Shown piece after piece: positions 28,907 to 49,592 of a stretch of 64,000 nt of DNA (its first letter is position 1; each line of letters begins with the position of its first letter). Source of the DNA: Halorhodospira halophila (GTDB lineage: Bacteria; Pseudomonadota; Gammaproteobacteria; Nitrococcales; Halorhodospiraceae); the NCBI RefSeq assembly GCF_016653405.1, contig NZ_NHSN01000017.1:62001-126000 (forward strand), written 5' to 3'. Made by a program: the position numbers and the translations under genes. The notes below the pieces were generated by a model. It did no database searches, was not told the origin of the DNA, and saw only the letters and a program-made list of their open reading frames with translations.

Positions 28907-29371
28907 TCACACGGCGCCGGCCGGCCCCGGCGGCGCCTCCAGCCAGAAGGTCACCGGCCCGTCATTGACCAGCTCAACCTGCATGTCCGCGCCAAAGACC
29001 CCGGCGGCCACCGGCCCCGTCGCCCGGGCGTGCAGAGCATCCAGAAAGATACCGAACAGGTCCTGACCGGTCTGGGGGTCGGCAGCGGGTCCGAAGCTCG
29101 GCCGCATGCCCTTGCGTGTATCCGCGGCCAGGGTGAACTGCGGCACAGCTAGCACACCGCAGGCCCGATCGAGGGCGGAGGCGTTCATGCGCCCGGCGTC
29201 ATCCGGAAACACTCGGTAGCCCAGCACCCGCTCGGCCAGGCGCCGGGCCTGTTGCGGGCCATCCCCGCGCACGGCACAGACCAGGGCGACCAGCCCGTGC
29301 CCGATCTGCCCGACAACCTCGCCCTCGACCCAAACCCGGGCCCTTCCTGAACGCTGAATAACGGTGATCAT
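28907..29371 (-). CDS. dtd: D-aminoacyl-tRNA deacylase
   Basis: A 154-residue DTD-family protein that hydrolyses D-aminoacyl-tRNAs to prevent misincorporation. The family blocks are [18 protein letters not shown] (S/P-Q-x-T active-site segment) and a C-terminal [14 protein letters not shown] (Gly-cis-Pro region). It is the first gene of the dtd-hisBHAFE-tatABC run. The GacA-like box of the proposed small RNA lies only 10-27 bases in front of its start codon, so the two divergent promoters share this stretch. Confidence 0.95.
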
Positions 29372-29380
29372 CGCCGACGA

Positions 29381-29398
29381 TGTCAGATTTGTCTTACA
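29381..29398. promoter_or_regulatory. GacA/UvrY-type box upstream of a proposed small RNA
   Basis: The sequence is TGTCAG-N6-CTTACA. The consensus upstream activating site of rsmX/Y/Z-type small RNA genes, bound by the response regulator GacA and its relatives, is TGTAAG-N6-CTTACA. Here 11 of the 12 fixed bases match and the spacing is exact. It lies about 65 bases before the proposed 5' end of the small RNA at 29455. In DNA this rich in G+C such an A+T-rich palindrome is unlikely by chance; by my rough estimate well under one match is expected in the window. Confidence 0.6.
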
Positions 29399-29454
29399 CG
29401 CACTGCGGCTGCCCCTGATTTCCCTGCTACGGGCGCTGGGGCATTGTAGACCAC

Positions 29455-29633
29455 GGCTACCGGCAGTCGAACTCCTGAGGCTTAACGGAAGAGCCCAGTC
29501 GATTGTGCGGGAGCCTGGGTGGGGCGATGGATCGCTCGGCCTTCAGGGACCGCTCAAGGAAGAGTAAGGCCCCCGCCCATTAGCCCGAGGGAAGCGGGTT
29601 CAAGCCGACGCAGGATGCGTCGGCTTTTTTTTT
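29455..29633 (+). ncRNA. Proposed CsrB/RsmZ-type regulatory RNA (sequesters CsrA/RsmA)
   Basis: A region of about 180 bases without a credible protein, ending in a perfect terminator on the plus strand that no annotated plus-strand gene explains. It holds seven GGA motifs, starting at 29487, 29510, 29529, 29547, 29558, 29590 and 29613, in contexts such as AGGGA, AAGGA and CAGGA. Several can be drawn in hairpin loops. 29475-29498 has a CTG/GGCT stem with loop TAACGGAAG. 29522-29537 has a 6-bp stem (one G-U) with loop TGGA. 29538-29571 has outer stem GGCCTT/AAGGCC with an inner CTC-AAGGAA-GAG. The terminator loop is exactly GGA. GGA in loops is the hallmark of CsrA/RsmA-titrating RNAs. The 5' end is approximate (CATTGT at 29442-29447 as a weak -10). 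A different kind of RNA remains possible. Confidence 0.55.
29602..29633 (+). terminator. Rho-independent terminator of the proposed small RNA
   Basis: A perfect 11-base-pair stem (29602-29612 with 29616-29626), loop GGA, followed on the plus strand by a run of T to 29633. On the minus strand only two T follow the stem, so it does not serve the PHA-protein gene well. Its orientation therefore argues for a plus-strand transcript in this gap. Confidence 0.88.
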
Positions 29634-29640
29634 CGTCCGA

Positions 29641-30183
29641 TCAGGCCTTCTTGCTGCCGCCCGAGGTGCTTCGCCCTGCAGAGGATTTCTGCGAGCCGGC
29701 AGCCCCCGACGTCGCGGTTCCGGATAGCTCCTGCATCGCCTCCTGGGCCCGCTTGGTCGCATCCTGCCAGGCCTGGAGCACGCGCTGGCCCTCCGAGTCC
29801 CACTGCTCCGCCATGCGGGACGGATCCATGTTCTTCACGCTGTCGAACCAGGCGTTCCAGAGCTTGCTCTGCGCCTCGGTCCAGGACTTCATCATCTCCT
29901 GGGTCTGCTTAACCGCCTCCTGCATCCCCTCGCTGGCATGCTCTCCGGCACCGGCCTGCTGTGCCCACTTCTGCGCCCACTGCACCTGGGCGTCGAGGGC
30001 CTCGCGGACCGCCTTCTCCCAGGCCTCCAGGTTCTGCTGATAGTGGCGCTGCCACTCATCGCCCTGGGACACCCCGGTGGGCATCTGCATGCCACGCACC
30101 GTCTGCAGCCACGTATCCCACATGCGCTGCTGCATCTCGGTCCAGTTCCGGACCATTTCTTCCATCGGTTGGTTACCGCTCAT
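29641..30183 (-). CDS. Phasin/PhaE-like PHA-associated protein with internal repeat
   Basis: A 180-residue, almost entirely helical protein. The N-terminal block VRNWTEMQQRMWDTWLQTV recurs at about residues 85-103 as MKSWTEAQSKLWNAWFDSV, an internal duplication rich in Trp and Gln. The C-terminal 28 residues are Ser/Gly/Ala/Lys-rich low complexity, like the basic tails of some phasins. The Trp-rich helices resemble PhaE, the partner subunit of class III PHA synthase, as well as phasins. I start it at the ATG at 30183, after GGAGAGG; the frame is open to 30456 without support. phaC is not in the window. It would act on PHA granule surfaces. Confidence 0.75.
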   Translation of the reverse strand: MSGNQPMEEMVRNWTEMQQRMWDTWLQTVRGMQMPTGVSQGDEWQRHYQQNLEAWEKAVREALDAQVQWAQKWAQQAGAGEHASEGMQEAVKQTQEMMKSWTEAQSKLWNAWFDSVKNMDPSRMAEQWDSEGQRVLQAWQDATKRAQEAMQELSGTATSGAAGSQKSSAGRSTSGGSKKA

Positions 30184-38724: not shown

Positions 38725-40158
38725 TCATCCCCGCTCTGCCCCCAGCTCGCGATACAGATCCCGATACGCCCGCGCCGAGGCCTCCCACGAGTAGCTCCCG
38801 GCCATGCCGCGGGCCTGGATGGCGTGCCAAGCCGACCGATCCCGCCAGTGCGCCAAGGCCCGCTCCACCGCCTCGGCCAGGGCGGCGCCCTCCGCCGCAG
38901 CCAGGTGGAAACCGTTACCGCTCTGGGGGTGGGCATCCACGTCCACGACCGTATCCGCCAGCCCGCCGGTGGGGTGGACCACCGGCGGCGTCCCGTAGCG
39001 CAGGGAGTAGAGCTGGTTGAGCCCGCACGGCTCAAAGCGCGAGGGCATCAGAAACAGATCACTGCCGGCCTCGATCTGGTGGGCGAGCGCCTCATCGTAG
39101 CCGATCACCACCCCGACCTGCCCCGGATATTGTTCGGCCGCGGCACGCAGCGCGGCCTCCAGCCTATGATCCCCCGAGCCGAGAAGGGCCAGCCGCGCGC
39201 CGCTGGCCAGCAGACGCGGCAACGCCGCCAGGATCAGGTCCACACCCTTTTGCTCCACCAGCCGACCGACGAAACCGAGCACGGGCCCGTCGCCCTCCGC
39301 CAGGCCAACGGCCCGTGCCACGGCTCCGCGATTGGCCCACCGGGCCGGGTCGTCCGGTTCGGCGTAGCGGGCGGCCAGATGGGGGTCACGCCCCGGGTCC
39401 CAGGTCTCGGTATCGATGCCGTTGACGATGCCGAACAGCCGGTCCCGCCGGTGGTGGAGGAGCCCCTCCAGCCCCCAGCCAAAGGCCGGGGTCTGGATCT
39501 CGCGAGCGTAGGTTGGGCTGACCGTCACCAGGGCGTCGGCGAAGACCAGCGAGCCCTTGATAAAGGCCAGCTGGCCGAAAAACTCCAACCCCTCGGGGTG
39601 CCAGAGCTCGGCTGGCAGCCCGAGCCGGGGATAGAGTTCCGCCGGAAAGAGCCCGCGGTAGGCCAGATTGTGGATACCGAACACGGTGGCCGGCCGCTCG
39701 CTGCGCTCGCGCAGGAACACCGGGGCCAACGCGGTCTGCCAGTCGTTGCCGTGGAGCACGTCGGCGCGCCAGTCCAGCAAATCCCCCGCTGCCAGAGCCG
39801 CAGCCACCTGCGACAGACGGCAGAACCGCCAATGATTGTCCGGCCAGGCATCGCCCCCAGCCGTGGCGTAGGGACCGCCGACGCGTGCGAACAGCGGCGG
39901 ATCGTCGAGCAGCCAGACCCCAACCCCGGTGCCGGGCAGCCGCCCTTCAATCAGCGCCACATCCCCGTCGGCCCACGGCACCTGACGCCGGCGGACCGTG
40001 CCCTCCAGCTGCTCGGCGGCACCCGGATAGGCGGGCATCAACAGGTGTACGTCGCAATCGAGCTCAGCCAGCCCCCGGGTCAGGCCGAAAGCCACGTCGC
40101 CCAAGCCCCCGGTCTTGGCCAGCGGCCAAGCCTCGGCGGTGGCGAACAGGATCCTCAC
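38725..40158 (-). CDS. glgA: Glycogen synthase (ADP-glucose)
   Basis: A 477-residue GT5 family starch/glycogen synthase, the same size as E. coli GlgA. It extends alpha-1,4-glucan with ADP-glucose. The N-terminal substrate motif is [12 protein letters not shown], with HGNDWQTAL, a C-terminal nucleotide-binding domain ([14 protein letters not shown]) and the catalytic-loop region [19 protein letters not shown]. The start is GTG at 40158, overlapping the glgB stop as GTGA; the upstream open frame is inside glgB. It is the second gene of the glgB-glgA pair. Confidence 0.96.
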
Positions 40159-42344
40159 GCACCCTCCCCGACCAGCACCAGGCCGGCCAGCGGCGGCAGG
40201 GTCAGCACCACCGAATACGGGTGGCCGCTCCACGGCACCGGCTCGGCGATCACGCCACCGGCGTTGCCCACATCCGAGCCGCCGTAGAGGGCCGAATCGG
40301 TGTTCATCCGCTCCGCCCAGTACCCAGCGACCGGCACGCCCAGCCGATAGCCGTGGCGTGGCACCGGCGTGAAGTTGAGAACCACCATTGCCCGCTCGCC
40401 GGCGTCACCGCAGCGCAGGTAACTGAACACCGACTGCTCGGCGTCGTGGCAGTCCACCCAGGCGAAGCCCGCCTCGGAGAAGTCGTGCCGGTGCAGCGCC
40501 GGCTCGCCCCGGTAGAGCCCGTTGAGATCGCCGATCAGGCGCTGCACGCCGGCGTGGCGTGGATCGGATAGGGCCGCCCAGTCCACCGTAGAATCGGCAT
40601 CCCATTCGCTGCGCTGGCCGATCTCGCAGCCCATGAACAGCAGCTTTTTGCCCGGATAGGTGAACTGGTAGGCGTAGAGCAGGCGCAGGTTGGCCAGGCG
40701 CTGCCAGTCGTCGCCGGGCATGCGGTCAAGCAGGCTGCCCTTGCCGTGGACCACCTCGTCATGACTGAACGGCAGGACGAAGTTCTCGGTGAAGGCGTAG
40801 AGCAGACCAAAGGTCAGCTGGTCGTGGTGGTAGCGGCGGTGGACGGGGTCCTCGCCGAGGTAGGTCAGGGTGTCGTGCATCCAGCCCATGTTCCACTTCA
40901 TGGTGAACCCCAGCCCACCGAGGTAGGTCGGGCGCGTGACCTGCGGCCAAGAGGTGGACTCCTCCGCGATGATGCAGGTCCCAGGCTGCTCGCCGTGGGT
41001 AACGGTGTTGACCTCGCGCAGGAAGGCGATGGCCTCCAGGTTCTCGTTGCCGCCGTGGACGTTCGCCACCCAGTCACCGTCCTCGCGGGAGTAGTCCAGA
41101 TAGAGCATGGAGGCCACTGCGTCGACGCGCAGCCCATCCAGATGGTAGGCCTCGAGCCAGTACACGGCGCTGGAGAGCAGGAAACTGCGCACCTCGTTGC
41201 GGCCGAAGTTGAAGATCAGCGTCCCCCAGTCGCGGTGCTCCCCCTGGCGGGGATCGGCGTGCTCGTAGAGCGGCGTACCGTCGAAGCGGGCCAGCGCCCA
41301 GGCGTCCCGCGGGAAGTGGGCGGGCACCCAGTCCAGGATCACTCCGATGCCGTGGCGGTGGCAGTAGTCAATGAAGTAGCGGAAATCATCCGGGCCGCCG
41401 AAGCGGCTGGTCGGGGCAAAGTAGCCGGTGGTCTGGTAGCCCCAAGAGTCGTCCAGCGGGTGCTCGGTGATCGGCAGCAGCTCGATGTGGGTAAACCCAG
41501 TGCGCTGGACGTACGCGACCAGCTCGTGGGCAAGGGTGCGGTAGTCGAGGAAACCGCCCTGCGCATCGCGCTGCCAGGAGCCAAGGTGGACCTCGTAGAT
41601 CGACCAGGGCGCCTGCTGCCAGGCGCTGCCCTCCCGGCGCCGGCGCTCCATCCACTCGCCGTCCTCCCAGGCGTAGGCCTCCGGCGGCTCGACCACGGCG
41701 GCCGTTTCGGGCCTTTGCTGGTAACGCCGGGCACAGGGGTCGGTCTTGAGCATGGGGCCACAACCGCCGTGACCGCGTAACTCGAACTTGTACAACGCCC
41801 CCGGCTCCAGCCCGGGGATAAACAGCTCCCACACCCCGGCCTCGAGGCGCAACCGCATGGGGTGAAGACGCCCGTCCCAGCGGTTGAAGTCGCCCACCAC
41901 GCTGACCCGCTCGGCGTTGGGCGCCCAGACGGCAAAGGCCACGCCCGCCACCCCCTCCACCGTGGTGCAGTGCGCGCCTAGAAAGCGCTGGGCGTGCCAG
42001 TGCCGCCCCTCGGCGTAGAGGTGCAGATCGAACTCGGAGAGCACCGGCGGGAAGCTGTAGGGGTCGTAGGTGCTGCGCCAGCTCCCGCCAGCGTCGCGCC
42101 AGCAGAAGACGTACGGCGCCTGCAGGGCGGCGGGCAGCGGCGCCTCGAAGAAGTCGGTACCCGCGATACGGGGCACCGCGGTGCCGTCCTTGAAGGTTAC
42201 CTCCACGGCTTCCGGGTGGTAGATCCGCACCCGGCGCTCGGCGCCGTGGGGCCCGCCGAGGTAGGCGAAGGGGTCGGCGTGACGGCCCTCCGCGATACGC
42301 TGCCGGTCGTCACCCCCGGCATCCTTCTGAATGGATCGATTCAC
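40155..42344 (-). CDS. glgB: 1,4-alpha-glucan branching enzyme
   Basis: A 729-residue GH13 enzyme (E. coli 728) that introduces alpha-1,6 branches into glycogen. An N-terminal CBM48-type region ([22 protein letters not shown]) precedes the catalytic barrel. The catalytic residues are visible as Asp in [17 protein letters not shown], Glu in [10 protein letters not shown] and Asp in [11 protein letters not shown] prefer the GTG at 42344 (then [10 protein letters not shown]), which gives the E. coli-like length; an ATG at 42398 gives 18 more residues with no homologous counterpart. It is divergent from glgC with a 126-base gap. Confidence 0.95.
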
Positions 42345-42470
42345 GCGCACACCCCGCTCGCCGGCTTCAATGGACCCTGCCGGAAGGGGCGCTGGCACGC
42401 AATACCCTGTCGATCGCCGGAAAAGCCGTCCATACTGCCCTTCAGGCCTCTGTCACCAGGAAGATCCGAC

Positions 42471-43736
42471 GTGTTATCCCATCGCTCTCCCCGTTTCGTC
42501 AGCCGCCTGACCCGAGACACCCTGGCCCTGATCCTCGCCGGCGGCCGCGGCACGCGGCTGCGCGAGCTCACCCAGTGGCGTGCCAAACCGGCGGTTCCGT
42601 TCGGCGGCAAGTTCCGCATCATCGACTTCCCCCTGTCCAACTGCATTAATTCCGGCGTGCGGCGCATTGGCGTACTCACCCAGTACAAGGCCCACTCCCT
42701 GATCCGGCACATCCGTCAGGGCTGGAGCTCGCTGAGCAGCGACTTCGGCGAGTTCGTCGAACTGCTGCCAGCCCAGCAGCGCATCGCCGACTCCTGGTAC
42801 CAAGGCACGGCCGATGCGGTTTATCAGAGCCTGGACATCGTCCGGCTGCACGATCCCGACTACGTCCTGATCCTCGCCGGCGACCACATCTACAAGATGG
42901 ACTACGGGCCGCTGCTTGCCTACCACGTGGAGAGCGGCGCCGACGTCACCGTCAGTTGCCTCGAGGTCCCCATCGAGGAAGCCAGCGCCTTCGGCGTCAT
43001 GGGCATCGATGACGACAGCCGGGTGGTTCGCTTCGACGAGAAGCCGGCCAGCCCCACCCCGATCCCCGGCCGCGACGACCGTGCGCTGGCCTCCATGGGG
43101 GTCTACGTCTTCAACCGGGACTTCCTCTTCCGAACCCTCGGGGCGGACGCCCGCAGCGGCTCGGAGCATGACTTCGGCAAGGACATCATCCCGCAGCTGA
43201 TCGACCAGGCCCGAGTCATGGCCTACCCCTTCCGGGAGCCGACCACCGGGGACCAGGCGTACTGGCGGGACGTAGGAACCATCGACGCCTTCTGGCGGAC
43301 CAACCTTGAGCTGATCGACGTCACCCCGGAGCTCAACCTCTATGACCGCAAGTGGCCGATCTGGACCTTCCAGGAGCAGCTGCCCCCGGCCAAGTTCGTC
43401 TTCGACGAGGAGGGCCGCCGCGGCACCGTAGTCGACTCCATGGTCTCCGGCGGGTGCATCATCTCCGGGGCGCGGCTACGGCGCTCGCTACTGTTCTCGT
43501 CGGTGATCGTCGATGAACGCACCCGGGTTGAGGACTCGGTGATCCTCCCCGAGGCCCATATCGAGCCCGACTGTCGGATCCGCAACGCGGTGATCGACAA
43601 GTACTGCCACATCCAGGCGGGGACCGTGATCGGCGAAGATCCCGAGGAGGACGCGCGGCGCTTTACGGTCAGCCCCAGCGGTGTTGTCCTCGTCACCCCG
43701 GAAATGCTCGGCCAGGAGATCCACGTTGTCTATTGA
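42471..43736 (+). CDS. glgC: Glucose-1-phosphate adenylyltransferase
   Basis: A 421-residue ADP-glucose pyrophosphorylase, the committed step of glycogen synthesis. The N-terminal [14 protein letters not shown] is followed by [19 protein letters not shown]. The catalytic Asp lies in [11 protein letters not shown], and the C-terminal left-handed beta-helix has hexapeptide-like repeats. I choose the GTG at 42471, six bases after AGGAAGA; the frame is open to 41994 over the glgB end and leader. It is the first gene of glgC-GH57-malQ, divergent from glgB. Confidence 0.95.
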
Positions 43737-45459
43737 TGCCAGCGACCCGAACGCGACAGAGACCCAGCCCGTGCGCGTGGTGCTGTGCTGGCACATGCAC
43801 CAGCCGAGCTACCTCGACCCCGGCACCGGCGACTACCTACTACCTTGGACCTACCTGCACGGGATCAAGGACTACGCCGACATGGCCGCCCACCTCGAGG
43901 CCAACCCGGCGGCGCGCGCAGTGGTCAACTTCTCCCCGGTTCTCCTCGAGCAGCTGGAGGACTACAGCCGCCAGATCGCCGGCTTCCTGGAAAGCGGCGA
44001 ACGGCTGCGCGACCCCCTGCTGCGCGCCCTGGCCATGCCCACCCTGCCGGTCAACGAGCACGAGCGGCGCCGCCTGGTCGAGCAGTGCCAGCGCATCAAC
44101 CGCCAGCGGCTAGCGGACCCGTTCCCGGCATTCCGGCACCTGCTCGAGATCGCCGAGATGGTCAGCGCCCACCCGGCGAGCATGCGCTACCTCAGCGACG
44201 CCTTCTTGGTGGATCTGATCACCTGGTACCACCTGGGCTGGATGGGCGAGACCGTCCGCCGCGGCGAGCCGCGGGTCCAGCGGCTGATCGACCAGGGCAA
44301 GGGCTTTACCCTCCACGACCGACGCGAACTGCTCGGCGTAATCGGCGAGCTGCTCGCCGGCCTGCCCCACCGCTACCGCCACCTGGCCGAGACCGGGCGG
44401 GTCGAGCTGTCGATGACCCCCTATGGGCACCCCATCCTGCCACTGCTCCAGGATCTGCAGTGCGCCCGCGAGTCCTGGCCCGAGAGTTCCATGCCGGTGG
44501 TCGACCGCTATCCCGGCGGCGAGGACCGGGCGCGCTGGCACCTCGAGCAGGGCATACGGCGCTTTGAGCACACCTTCGGCCACCGTCCGCGGGGGTGCTG
44601 GCCGTCGGAGGGGGCGATCAGCCAGGCCACCCTGAGGCTACTGCAGGAGTTCGGATTCCGCTGGGCGGCCAGCGGCGGCGCGGTCCTGGACAACAGCCTC
44701 GGCCCGGAGGGCACCGGCAACGGCCAGTGGCACCGGGCCTACGCCCTCGACGCCGAGGGCGACAGCGGCGACGGAACCCGCTGCTTCTTCCGCGACGACG
44801 GGCTGTCCGACGCCATCGGCTTCGAGTTCTCCGACTGGCACGGCGACGACGCCGTCGCCAATCTAATCAGCCGCATGGAGGCCATCGCCGCCGGCTGCGA
44901 GGCACCGGAACAGACGGTCATCCCGATCATCATGGACGGCGAGAACGCCTGGGAGCACTACCCCGCCAACGGTTTCCATTTTCTCAACGGCTTGTATCAG
45001 CGGCTCGGCGATCACCCGGGACTGGTGCTGACCACCTTCGCCGAGGCGGCCGAGGAACTCGAGCCGCGCCCCCTGTCACGACTGGTGGCCGGCAGCTGGG
45101 TCTACGGCACCCTCTCCACCTGGATCGGCGAGGTGGACAAGGATCGGGCCTGGGAGCTGCTTGCCGAGGCCAAGCAGGCGTTCGATCAGCGTATCGGCGC
45201 GCTCGACGAAGCCGCCCGGGAACGCGCCGAGGCGCAGCTGGCCATCTGCGAGAGTTCGGACTGGTTCTGGTGGTTCGGCGACTACAACCCCGCCGACGTG
45301 ATCCGCGACTTCGACCACCTCTATCGGATCCAACTCGCCGCGCTGTACCACGCCCTGGGCCAGGAGCCGCCGGAGCACCTGAGCCACGCCTTCGCGCGCC
45401 AGGGCCGGGGCTCGCCCGAGCGCGGCGGCGTGATGCGCCACGGACGCGCCGAGCCGTGA
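43726..45459 (+). CDS. Glycoside hydrolase family 57 protein
   Basis: A 577-residue GH57 alpha-glucan enzyme. Conserved regions are the first motif WHMHQPSY, the nucleophile region [13 protein letters not shown] with the presumed Glu, the acid/base region [17 protein letters not shown], and [11 protein letters not shown]. Members of this family are amylases, 4-alpha-glucanotransferases or branching enzymes, and the exact activity cannot be read from the sequence. The start is a TTG at 43726 inside the end of glgC (11-base overlap), with AGGAGA six bases upstream, so it depends on glgC translation. It overlaps malQ by four bases. The locus points to glycogen turnover. Confidence 0.9.
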
Positions 45460-46949
45460 GCGGCGCGGAGCTGGCCGAGCGGCGCCGGGCTGGGGTGCTG
45501 GTTCACCTCAGCGCCCTGCCTGGGCCCGCAGGCAACGGCGACCTGGGGCAGCACGCCTACCGCTTCGTGGACTGGCTGGCGGCAAGCGGCTTCACCATCT
45601 GGCAGATGCTGCCGCTCGGCCCCACCCACGACGACCTCAGCCCCTACCAGGGGTTGTCGGTTCACGCGGGCGAGCCGTGCTACATCGACCTAAACGCACT
45701 GGCCGAGCGGGGGTGGCTGACGCCGGAGGAGCTTCACCCCCCAGAGACCGGAGACGATCCTGTCGCGCTGCGGGCCTGGCGCCGCTCCTGCCTGCACCGC
45801 GCCCACCAGCGGCTGCGCGAACAAGGTGACGCACCGACCGAGGCGCAGATCGACGCCTTCCGGCGCGAGCAGGGCCACTGGCTGGAGGACTACGCCCTCT
45901 ACGCCGCCCTGCGCGAGGAGCACGGCGACGCGGCCTGGTGGACGTGGCCCGCCGCCGAGCGGGACCGCGAACCGGCGGCGCTGGAGGCAGCCACCCACCG
46001 GCTGGCCGGGCGGATCGACCGCCACATCTTTGAACAGTACCTCTTCTTCAGCCAGTGGCAGGCGTTGCGCGACTACGCCGCCGAGCGCGGTGTCCAGTTC
46101 TTCGGCGACGTCCCCATTTTCGTCGCCCACGACAGCGCCGATACCTGGGCCCACCGGCGGTACTTCCGACTCGACGACGAGGGGCATGCGGCCCTCGTCG
46201 CCGGCGTGCCACCGGACTATTTCTCCGCCGAGGGCCAGCGCTGGGGCAACCCGCTCTACGACTGGCAGCGCCTGCAGGGCGACGGCTTCGCGTGGTGGCT
46301 CGAGCGGCTGGCCACCCAGCTGGCCCTGTTCGACTTCGTGCGCATCGATCACTTCCGGGGGCTGAGCGCCTGCTGGGCGATCCCGGCCGAGGCGCCCACC
46401 GCCCGGGACGGATACTGGGAGGCAGCCCCCGGGGACGCCCTACTCGAGGCGGTGGAGGAGCGCTTCGGTCGGGTCCCGCTGGTGGCCGAGGATCTGGGCG
46501 TGATCACCGAGGACGTGGAGCGGCTCCGCGAGCGCTTCGCCCTGCCGGGGATGAAGGTGCTGCACTTCGCCTTCGACAGCGACGCCGCCAACCCCTACCT
46601 ACCCCACCAGCACCACCGGCACTGCGTCGTCTACACCGGTACCCACGACAACGACACCACCCTGGGCTGGTACGCCGACCTACCGGAGGCGACGGCGCAG
46701 CGGCTCCACGCCTACCTGGGCCACCCCGGCGAACCGATGCCGTGGCCGCTGATCCGGGCAGCGCTGGCGTCGGTGGCAGGACTGGCCGTGATCCCGTTGC
46801 AGGATCTGCTGGCGCTGGGCGGCGAGCACCGCATGAACGTGCCCGGGGTTGCCGAGGGCAACTGGCGCTGGCGTTTTGAATGGGAGTGGCTGCCCGGCCC
46901 CCTGGCCGGGCAGCTGCGCGCCCTCAACGAACTCTACGGCCGGCTCTAG
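45456..46949 (+). CDS. malQ: 4-alpha-glucanotransferase (amylomaltase)
   Basis: A 497-residue GH77 enzyme that transfers alpha-1,4-glucan chains between oligosaccharides. Motifs are LPLGPTHDDLSPYQGLS near the N-terminus, FDFVRIDHFRGL with the catalytic nucleophile Asp, VAEDLGVI with the acid/base Glu, and YTGTHDNDTTLGWY with the transition-state Asp. The GTG at 45456 overlaps the GH57 stop as GTGA; the long open frame upstream to 44595 lies inside that gene. With GlgP it would process the outer chains of glycogen. Confidence 0.95.
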   Translation: MSGAELAERRRAGVLVHLSALPGPAGNGDLGQHAYRFVDWLAASGFTIWQMLPLGPTHDDLSPYQGLSVHAGEPCYIDLNALAERGWLTPEELHPPETGDDPVALRAWRRSCLHRAHQRLREQGDAPTEAQIDAFRREQGHWLEDYALYAALREEHGDAAWWTWPAAERDREPAALEAATHRLAGRIDRHIFEQYLFFSQWQALRDYAAERGVQFFGDVPIFVAHDSADTWAHRRYFRLDDEGHAALVAGVPPDYFSAEGQRWGNPLYDWQRLQGDGFAWWLERLATQLALFDFVRIDHFRGLSACWAIPAEAPTARDGYWEAAPGDALLEAVEERFGRVPLVAEDLGVITEDVERLRERFALPGMKVLHFAFDSDAANPYLPHQHHRHCVVYTGTHDNDTTLGWYADLPEATAQRLHAYLGHPGEPMPWPLIRAALASVAGLAVIPLQDLLALGGEHRMNVPGVAEGNWRWRFEWEWLPGPLAGQLRALNELYGRL

Positions 46950-46971
46950 GCGGCGGTCGCCGCCTAGAGCC
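46942..46971. terminator. Palindromic hairpin holding both convergent stop codons
   Basis: A perfect 13-base-pair inverted repeat (46942-46954 with 46959-46971) with loop GGTC lies between malQ and glgP. The malQ stop TAG (46947-46949) and the glgP stop (46966-46964 on the minus strand) are both inside the stem. There is no T run. It is a compact bidirectional transcript-end candidate. Confidence 0.6.
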
Positions 46972-49519
46972 AGCGCATCCGCCCCAGCTCCAGCGGGTGA
47001 CCGAGCAGCGGGTGGCTCGGGTACATGCAGATACGGAAGTACTGCAAGCCGTTGAGGCGGGGTTGAATGTCCAGGGAGAACAGCGGATCCCCGTCGTCAT
47101 CACCGCCAGTGGGCGAGAACACGAAACGCTGGGTCTGGCCCGGATCCCGGGGGTGGGGCACCGGGCTGAAGCGGCACTCGACGGTGACATCATCGGCACC
47201 CAGCCCGTTGAGCTGCGCCTTCACCCGCAGACGCAGCGGCTCTCCGTGGCGCAGGGCGTCCGGGGCCTCGTCGATCAGCTCCAGGGCCGTCCCGTCCCAG
47301 CAGGCCCGCACATGCTCCTTCCAGGCGGCCAGACCAGCGGCGCCGGCCAACTCCTCGTCGGTCAGGCGCCGATGATGTCGGGCGGCCGGGCCATAGAGAT
47401 CGCGCACATAGTCCATCACCATGCGCTGCGCATTGAACCGGGGCAGCGTACTGCGCATCGAGGCCTTGGACATCTGCACCCAGCCGGCCGAGTAGCCGCG
47501 CTCACCGCGATCGAAGTAGAGCGGCGCCACCTCACCGGCAAGGGTATCGAGCAGGTCGCGGGCCTCCTCGCCGTCACGGTACTCCGGATCGAAGCCCGGC
47601 GCGTGGGGGTAGATCGCCCAGCCGTTGTCCCCGGCGTAGCCCTCATCCCACCAGCCATCCAGAACCGAGAGATTGACCACCCCGTTGATGGCCGCCTTCT
47701 GACCGGAGGTGCCGCACGCCTCCAGGGGGTACTCCGGATTGTTCAGCCACACGTCGACACCGGTCACCAGCTTGCGCGCCAGCGCCATGTCGTAGTTCTC
47801 CAGCAGCAGAAGCCGCCCGATCAGATCGGGATCGAGGGTCAGCTCGTGGATCCGCCGAATCATCTCCTGGCCCTGCTCATCGTGCGGGTGGGCCTTGCCG
47901 GCGAAGATCAGGATCATCGGCCGCTCGGGATCGTTGAGCAGCTGCTTGAGACGCTCGAGGTCGCGGAAGATCAGCAGAGCGCGCTTGTAGGTGGCAAAGC
48001 GGCGGGCAAAACCGAGCACGAGGACATCGGCCTCGGGGTCGCGGATGAAGCGGGTCATGCGCCGGATCATCGCCTCGGCCATGCCGTTGCGCTTGCACCG
48101 CGCCTCGACCCGGGCACAGACGTCGCGGAGCATCTGCGACTTCAGGCTCTGGCGCATGCTCCAGTAGCGGTGATCGGGCAGCTCGTCGACCACGCTCCAG
48201 AACGCCTCGTTGCTCAGCTCGCTGCGCCAGGCCGGCCAGCGCTGATCGAAGAGATTGCCCCACTCCTGGGCCAGGAAGGTCGGCACGTGCACGCCGTTGG
48301 TGATGGCGTGGATGGGGTTCTCCTGAGCCGGCACATCAGGCCAGATGCGCGCCTCCATCTCCGAGGCCACGCGGCCGTGGATTCGGCTGACCCCGTTGTG
48401 GAAGCGCGATCCGCGCAGGGCCAGGCTGGTCATGTTGAAACCCGGCTGCTCAGCCCGCCCGTTGCCCAGCGCCAGCAGGGCATCGATATCGAGCCCGGAG
48501 TCCCCGAGCGCAGCCCCCAGGTATTCGCGGACCATCTCCGGATCGAAGATGTCGTGACCCGCCGCCACCGGCGTGTGCGTCGTAAACACCGAGCCCCCGG
48601 CGACGGCCTCCATCGCCGTGACGAAATCGACGCCGGCCGCCACCCACTCGCGGCAGCGCTCGACGAGCTGGAAGGCCGAGTGCCCCTCGTTCAAGTGCCA
48701 GACCGTCGGCGCCACGCCAAGCTTGCGCAGCGCCCGTACGCCCCCGATGCCGAGGCAGAGCTCCTGCTTGATGCGCATCTCGGTGCCGCCGCCGTAGAGC
48801 TGATAGGTGATCGAGCGATCCTCGGGGGTGTTCTCGGGCACATCGCTGTCGAGCATGTACAGACGCACGTGGCCGGCCCGCACCGACCAGATGCGCAGCT
48901 GCACCGATCGTCCGGGGAAGTCGACAGCCACCCGCAGCTCCTCGCCGTCACCATCCTGGCGTGGGTAGGCGGGCAGCTGCGCCACCTCGGTGGGCACGTA
49001 GTGCGCCACCTGGCGCCCTTCGTGATCGATGCTCTGGATGAAGTAGCCCTGGCGATAGAGCAACCCGACCGCGATCAGCGGCACGCGCAGATCGCTGGCC
49101 GCCTTGCAGTGGTCACCGGCGAGGATGCCGAGGCCGCCAGAGTAAAGGGGCAGGCTCTCGTGCAGGCCGAACTCGGCGCAGAAGTAGGCCACCAGGTCCT
49201 GGTCCGGATCCAGGTGCGGGGCAACCTCCGGCGACGTGTCCTGCTCCAGATAGGTGTCGTAGGCGGAAAGGGTCCGGTTGTAGTCTTCCAGGAAGGTCGG
49301 GTCCTCGGCGGCACGCTCTAACGCCTCCTGGGGAACCCGGCGCAGGAAAACCTTGGGGTTGTGGCCGCTGGCCTCCCAGCACTCGGGGTCAATCTGGTAG
49401 AACAGCCCCCGGACTCGCCGGTCCCAGGAATAGTAGAGGTCATCGTCCAGCTCGCGCAGGCGGGCGAGTGACGGCGGGAGGCAGGGGTGGACTTCCAGGG
49501 TGAAGACGCGTTCGGACAT
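46964..49519 (-). CDS. glgP: Alpha-glucan phosphorylase
   Basis: An 851-residue PLP-dependent phosphorylase that releases glucose-1-phosphate from glycogen. It belongs to the shorter Thermotoga/actinobacterial-type family (N-terminal DUF3417-like region DDDLYYSWDRRVRGLF). The PLP-binding block is near residue 610 (EACGTSGQKAAINGVVN, then LDGWWDEGY). The blocks FTTHTPVAAGHDIF and RFATYKRALLIF are also present. It faces malQ with only 14 bases between the stop codons. A bidirectional terminator separates it from the cold-shock gene upstream. Confidence 0.94.
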   Translation of the reverse strand: MSERVFTLEVHPCLPPSLARLRELDDDLYYSWDRRVRGLFYQIDPECWEASGHNPKVFLRRVPQEALERAAEDPTFLEDYNRTLSAYDTYLEQDTSPEVAPHLDPDQDLVAYFCAEFGLHESLPLYSGGLGILAGDHCKAASDLRVPLIAVGLLYRQGYFIQSIDHEGRQVAHYVPTEVAQLPAYPRQDGDGEELRVAVDFPGRSVQLRIWSVRAGHVRLYMLDSDVPENTPEDRSITYQLYGGGTEMRIKQELCLGIGGVRALRKLGVAPTVWHLNEGHSAFQLVERCREWVAAGVDFVTAMEAVAGGSVFTTHTPVAAGHDIFDPEMVREYLGAALGDSGLDIDALLALGNGRAEQPGFNMTSLALRGSRFHNGVSRIHGRVASEMEARIWPDVPAQENPIHAITNGVHVPTFLAQEWGNLFDQRWPAWRSELSNEAFWSVVDELPDHRYWSMRQSLKSQMLRDVCARVEARCKRNGMAEAMIRRMTRFIRDPEADVLVLGFARRFATYKRALLIFRDLERLKQLLNDPERPMILIFAGKAHPHDEQGQEMIRRIHELTLDPDLIGRLLLLENYDMALARKLVTGVDVWLNNPEYPLEACGTSGQKAAINGVVNLSVLDGWWDEGYAGDNGWAIYPHAPGFDPEYRDGEEARDLLDTLAGEVAPLYFDRGERGYSAGWVQMSKASMRSTLPRFNAQRMVMDYVRDLYGPAARHHRRLTDEELAGAAGLAAWKEHVRACWDGTALELIDEAPDALRHGEPLRLRVKAQLNGLGADDVTVECRFSPVPHPRDPGQTQRFVFSPTGGDDDGDPLFSLDIQPRLNGLQYFRICMYPSHPLLGHPLELGRMRWL

Positions 49520-49592
49520 GGGTGGGGCAACTCCCTCTGTGGACCCCTCTGTTTAGCACATGTCGCCGGGGCGCACACGCACGTCCCACAAC

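Follow-up and report, generated by a model that had tools for sequence, protein, structure and literature searches.

A predicted GacA-driven CsrA-antagonist RNA gene adjoining dtd in Halorhodospira halophila, with candidate counterparts in other Gammaproteobacteria

The DNA examined here, a 64 kb stretch referred to as the window, is part of the 2.86 Mb genome (G000) of Halorhodospira halophila, a halophilic purple sulfur bacterium. It contains a gap flanked by two minus-strand genes: dtd (28907–29371; PF02580, E 2.9e-47), which encodes a D-aminoacyl-tRNA deacylase and is transcribed away from the candidate small RNA (sRNA), and a phasin-like gene (29641–30183), which is convergent with it and whose match to Phasin_2 (E 0.0007, 20.2 bits) lies below the cut-off of 24.9. 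The original prediction had set the sRNA beside PHA and glycogen genes. The adjoining phasin-like gene is a candidate for the former, and a block of glycogen-type genes (GlgA-, GlgB/X- and GlgC-like motifs, recognized by pattern) is found at 38728–49552, 9–20 kb from the sRNA.

Direct reading of the plus strand of the gap revealed a GacA/UvrY-type box, TGTCAG-N6-CTTACA, at 29381–29398 (TGTCAGATTTGTCTTACA), matching 11 of the 12 fixed bases with the N6 spacing; a spacer of 9 nt separates it from the start codon of dtd, on the upstream side of that gene. It is followed by seven GGA motifs (first bases at 29487, 29510, 29529, 29547, 29558, 29590 and 29613) and by an intrinsic terminator (29602–29633) consisting of an 11-pair stem at 29602–29626 with the loop GGA and a T run extending to 29633. 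On the minus strand, the terminator hairpin has no T run. The box with its exact spacing, the seven GGAs, the TGGA loop at 29528–29531, the TAACGGAAG loop at 29483–29491 and the GGA-looped plus-strand terminator had all been foreseen, and each was borne out with its coordinates. A promoter scan detected no sigma-70 match on the plus strand of the gap, and a −10-like stretch was seen by eye past the box in several dtd loci. Within the gap, a sigma-70-like sequence was matched only on the minus strand (29470–29443), where it is directed towards dtd and overlies the 5′ portion of the presumed sRNA. The promoters of the sRNA and of dtd may overlap.

The box is the only site within the 64 kb window with at least 9/12 fixed bases; shuffled 64 kb sequences contained on average 3.95 sites of at least 9/12 and 0.05 sites of at least 11/12. 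A genome-wide search with TGTMAG-N5..8-CTTACA returned, besides this box, only a 17-bp palindrome that is unrelated to it and present twice, compared with none in the control. This palindrome, TGTAAGTGCCGCTTACA (L010:1501-1517 and L011:1501-1517), resembles a GacA box with N5 spacing, and its copy in L011 is situated just ahead of an ORF whose product resembles ATPases of the AAA type. A looser box allowing one mismatch was rejected as a genome-wide signal, being not above its control among the matches listed (10 and 11 versus 16 and 17).

The number of GGAs, to which the original prediction had implicitly given weight, proved ordinary (seven versus a mean of 5.75 in dinucleotide shuffles, p 0.32), and the evidence comes instead from ANGGA loops and covariation. 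The high-affinity site of CsrA is described, in the part of the source consulted, as an ANGGAN loop (PMC7652899). ANGGA occurs five times in the element as against a dinucleotide-shuffle mean of 1.20 (p 0.0046), and when both strands of the 64 kb were scanned in steps of 10 with windows of 191 nt, only eight of the 12762 windows held at least five ANGGA, all of them on this element. By a scripted count, four of the five ANGGA are placed in simple hairpin loops. The predicted fold of 29456–29633 has a free energy of −82.3 kcal/mol (z −2.80), with 4 of 200 shuffles equally good. The candidate sRNA body, as modelled, spans about 29454–29633 and begins with a 5′ stem-loop (29455–29515), whose apical hairpin (29475–29498) carries AACGGAA in its loop and whose 3′ side includes the GGA at 29510. 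A middle domain (29516–29579) comprises the hairpin GCGA-TGGA-TCGC (29524–29535), the motif AGGGA (29545–29549) and the hairpin GCTC-AAGGAA-GAGT (29552–29565), and is followed by a further hairpin (29582–29600) with its loop in an AGGGAAG region. These three parts are supported by fold and covariation.

In order to follow the element within the family, 12 genomes were searched at the DNA level, which identified relatives in G004 (88%), G006 (82%) and G007 (75%) and terminator pieces in G005 and G008. The G004 counterpart occupies G004:C1:1188317-1188493. Five full copies (G000, G004, G005, G006 and G007) were aligned by sequence alone, and the covariation figures were obtained from this alignment, not from hand-set helices. 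The structure under test contained 54 pairs, namely the RNAalifold consensus minus one weak helix. Ten pairs were changed on both sides, compared with a mean of 4.1 in shuffled alignments, and the covariation score was 0.198 versus 0.141; in each case none of 500 shuffles reached the observed value. Five of the nine pairs in the closing stem of the middle domain were changed on both sides. Paired cells amounted to 89.9%, a percentage biased in favour of the structure because the latter was derived from the same alignment; sliding the partners by 1–3 columns reduced it to 36–43% and left 0–3 pairs changed on both sides. Among the five copies no variation at all was seen in the stem of the terminator, and the six GGAs preceding it were kept in 3.0 of four relatives compared with 1.75 for other triplets (p 0.010).

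These data bear on the proposal that no RNA gene exists here at all, and that the gap holds either a plus-strand ORF (29364–29567, 67 aa) or the end of the phasin transcript. The frame is indeed open and the end of the phasin gene is nearby, but the ORF has no Pfam match and contains a 2-nt length difference in G006, the observed changes follow the stems, and the T run of the terminator is on the plus strand only. We regard this explanation as having almost no chance of being correct.

Conservation was found for the RNA, its GGAs and its terminator stem in five genomes, but not for the box, which fades (10/12 in G004, 9/12 in G006 and G005, no site of at least 9/12 in G007 or in G001), nor throughout the family, as 6 of the 12 genomes (G002, G003 and G008–G011) have dtd without the RNA next to it. 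Upstream of dtd in G008 (L096:2061-2085) there is a terminator-like hairpin lacking both a T run and the remainder of the RNA, which looks like a relic of RNA loss. The model R1, built from the five copies (its match to the window, 29454–29629, is by construction), was scored on the best 150 first-look candidates per genome in the family run and the best 50 in the order run; as regards a second copy in G000, its other matches there were weak (E 0.54 and 1.2).

The partners expected of such an RNA are encoded in the genome, as had been proposed for verification. Two csrA copies are present in G000. The gene immediately preceding uvrC codes for a homologue of UvrY/GacA that is 42% identical to UvrY and retains D54, K104 and the acidic pair. 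A candidate for BarA/GacS is a hybrid kinase that combines PAS, HisKA, HATPase, receiver and Hpt domains. The second CsrA, located on a 3 kb contig (G000:C38; L002:1501-1650), is divergent, scoring 62 bits versus 91.6 for the main copy, and extra CsrA copies also occur in several relatives. The phasin and glgC leaders were examined as CsrA targets: a GGA overlaps the phasin Shine-Dalgarno sequence in G000, G004 and G006, which is uninformative on CsrA targeting because a Shine-Dalgarno sequence looks like that.

The region upstream of dtd was then compared beyond the family, using dtd loci taken from named records (the best 80 of 540 relatives), 79 of which had at least 300 nt upstream (L045 was left out). 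Upstream of dtd, clusters of at least five ANGGA in 180 nt were found in 12 of the 79, compared with four on the other strand, seven with the reversed motif and a shuffle mean of 1.7 (maximum 5); for at least six ANGGA the corresponding figures were 12, one, three and a shuffle mean of 0.2. Since such clusters also appeared on the other strand and with the reversed motif, a triple test was adopted, in which an N6-spaced box scoring 9/12 or better had to be followed by at least three ANGGA and these by a terminator, all inside 2.6 kb and on the opposite strand from dtd. This ordered triple was present in 18 of the 79 loci and absent from the other strand, and 20 shuffles gave none eighteen times and one twice. 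The distance between box and dtd was at most 210 nt in seven loci and 964–1625 nt in the other 11. Triple-bearing loci include those of Ectothiorhodospira shaposhnikovii, E. marina, E. haloalkaliphila, Thioalkalivibrio denitrificans, Candidatus Thiodiazotropha and a Sedimenticola thiotaurini draft. By eye, the order dtd, RNA, phasin seen in the window recurs in L022, and in L028 a gene resembling proline iminopeptidase sits between dtd and the RNA. In three further loci, L018, L019 (Plasticicumulans acidivorans) and L024, the scan found the box together with ANGGA but no terminator. In the 18 elements and the window, 63 of 183 GGAs were in simple hairpin loops compared with 734 of 3500 other triplets, which we take as modest support because GAT, ATG and ACG exceed GGA in this respect.

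The same arrangement was sought in 54 genomes of the order, 53 of which contain dtd and 52 of which have usable sequence upstream of it (31 nt in G018). With at least two ANGGA required, the triple was detected in 23 of the 52, with the box 9–77 nt from dtd; there were none on the other strand and 0–2 in each of 20 shuffles. The named and the order-level sets are not independent, because they overlap (G006 and L012 are one contig). Among the remaining 29 genomes, four were judged, from the model or on visual inspection, to carry the RNA: G007 (R1, E 5.5e-29), G001 (a GGA-rich candidate with a terminator-like hairpin and a box below 9/12), G028 and G034. When R1 was run over the 54 genomes, its five strong matches were its own seeds, and the G008 hairpin was also recovered. 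Its best match outside the family, made blind to position, was in G015, a member of another family (E 0.0056): it begins 61 nt from dtd, the place predicted, and aligns with long insertions and best in the terminator. Weaker matches were G015:C14 (E 0.0087, likewise best aligned in the terminator) and G007:C67 (E 0.021).

In each of the 23 triple-bearing genomes a UvrY homologue is encoded next to uvrC; its acidic pair was read in 22 of them (the region was not covered in G033). The homologue is also present in G007, G001, G028 and G034 (acidic pair not covered in G034). The 25 genomes in which dtd is not accompanied by the RNA divide into 19 with no homologue beside uvrC, where only the stretch upstream of uvrC was considered (about 0.6 kb in G019), four with a decayed receiver, and two, G008 and G009, with an intact homologue (drafts 83% and 77% complete). 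The receiver pocket reads NA in G002 (L115), DW in G003 (L106) and DG in G010 (L112) and G011 (L113); in the G011 homologue E replaces the phosphorylated D. Thirteen of the 19 genomes lacking the homologue belong to one small-genome genus, which we presume may be Spiribacter. Fisher's exact test on the scripted table (23, 6, 0, 23) gave p 1.6e-9, a value to be read with the non-independence of related genomes in mind. Three genera (g1, g9 and g13) include genomes both with and without the RNA, suggesting more than one joint loss. CsrA matches were obtained in 50 of the 54 genomes, the exceptions being G014, G026, G036 and G046; G014 (assembly 78% complete) has the RNA and the GacA homologue without a CsrA match, and G026 and G036 have neither the RNA nor a GacA homologue beside uvrC.

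This co-occurrence weighs on whether GacA is involved. A CsrA-binding sRNA free of GacA control, with the box being there by chance or serving dtd, would fit the persistence of the RNA in members of the genus where the box has faded, as well as the failure of loose boxes to exceed their control in the genome. Such an RNA would not, however, account for the order and orientation of box, ANGGA and terminator being kept in 18/79 and 23/52 cases against none on the other strand, for perfect 12/12 boxes in several loci (G014, G017 and G052), or for the RNA occurring together with an intact GacA homologue, and we consider it unlikely. Alternatively, the GGA-rich loops, which look like Shine-Dalgarno sequences, could serve base-pairing of a structured sRNA with mRNAs instead of CsrA. 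This has very little probability in our view, as the enrichment is of ANGGA and not of any G-rich stretch, the loop flanks vary while the GGA stays, and the joint loss is with GacA, whose known role concerns the Csr RNAs (PMC4682653).

We therefore favour, with a probability of about 0.87 judged from sequence comparison, a non-coding RNA gene of ∼175–190 nt that would be driven by GacA and work like CsrB/RsmZ as a CsrA antagonist. The architecture of a CsrA-titrating RNA, as first proposed, is supported by the ANGGA cluster, the covarying stems and the presence of csrA and gacA. Phosphorylated GacA/UvrY would bind the box at 29381–29398 and transcription would start ∼60 nt downstream; the RNA would fold into a row of hairpins exposing ANGGA in their loops, CsrA dimers would bind these loops and so be drawn off mRNA leaders, and RNA synthesis would stop at the GGA-looped terminator. 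Transcription, activation by GacA, binding of CsrA and the choice of the freed mRNAs are steps that we infer. The dtd-linked RNA of the window appears from these comparisons to be one case of a widespread arrangement that is not particular to G000. The novelty lies in how long the position next to dtd has apparently been retained, and in what seems to be repeated loss of the RNA together with GacA. We lean somewhat towards a single ancestral GacA-driven gene for a CsrA-antagonist RNA, running divergently from dtd or from dtd together with a pip-like gene, that would have been kept by position across several gammaproteobacterial orders while its sequence drifted beyond the reach of sequence models, and lost along with GacA or its receiver function.

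If this ancestry is true, synteny with dtd would offer a general route to the Csr RNAs still missing from these lineages. A fixed address combined with box, ANGGA cluster and terminator yields candidates in dozens of genomes, and genomes that retain CsrA but have neither the RNA nor, next to uvrC, an intact GacA amount to natural experiments on sponge-less CsrA. Zere et al. (2015) put forward BarA-UvrY, with its orthologues, as the system responsible for transcribing CsrA antagonists in all of the Gammaproteobacteria (PMC4682653), and this proposal becomes testable in phototrophic halophiles storing PHA and polysaccharide. In what was available of a prediction study, including part of its Table 2, Halorhodospira, Ectothiorhodospira and Alkalilimnicola are unnamed (PMC5568370), and the accessible part of a Thioalkalivibrio paper describes cold upregulation of a csrA gene and reports no Csr RNA (PMC8092127). 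Our literature searches found nothing on Halorhodospira with CsrA, nothing linking RsmA, sRNA, D-tyrosyl-tRNA and GacA, and, among the papers listed, no report of this dtd-linked RNA, although it may have been listed earlier.

The comparison with Rfam CsrB/Rsm-type models, which had been suggested as a check, gave no match at gathering for clan CL00106 in the window; the best hit was RsmV with 10.8 bits (E 1.9, gathering 100), placing the window RNA outside the described Rfam families. No Csr/Rsm family reached gathering in the 18 triple-bearing named loci, nor was there any Rfam match at gathering at the order-level dtd places. Among the 10 loci searched with E-values, the dtd-linked element of L019 matched CsrB with 35.8 bits (E 2.8e-6), below the gathering score of 71, and the other nine had no Csr/Rsm match at E 1 or better.

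The RsmX, RsmY, RsmZ and RsmV RNAs of Pseudomonas are similar in size to the window RNA and have ANGGA hairpin loops and an upstream GacA box; to our knowledge, none of them adjoins dtd. Pf1, Pf2 and Pf3 of Pseudoalteromonas fuliginea are described as Csr RNAs recently identified in what is likewise a non-model gammaproteobacterium, of another lineage (PMC9927453, PMC11882849). In contrast to E. coli CsrB, the window RNA is about half as long, has seven GGAs versus 22 (PMC7652899, in part), lies beside dtd and not near yqcC and syd as csrB does, and has no Rfam match at gathering. It shares with CsrB and CsrC (RF00018, RF00084) the many GGA loops, the intrinsic terminator and an upstream 18-nt UvrY palindrome, for which the available part of the E. 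coli study gives the csrB site TGTGAGAGATCTCTTACA and the consensus TGTAAGNNNNNNCTTACA (PMC4682653); and, as with the homologue in G000, uvrY of E. coli adjoins uvrC.
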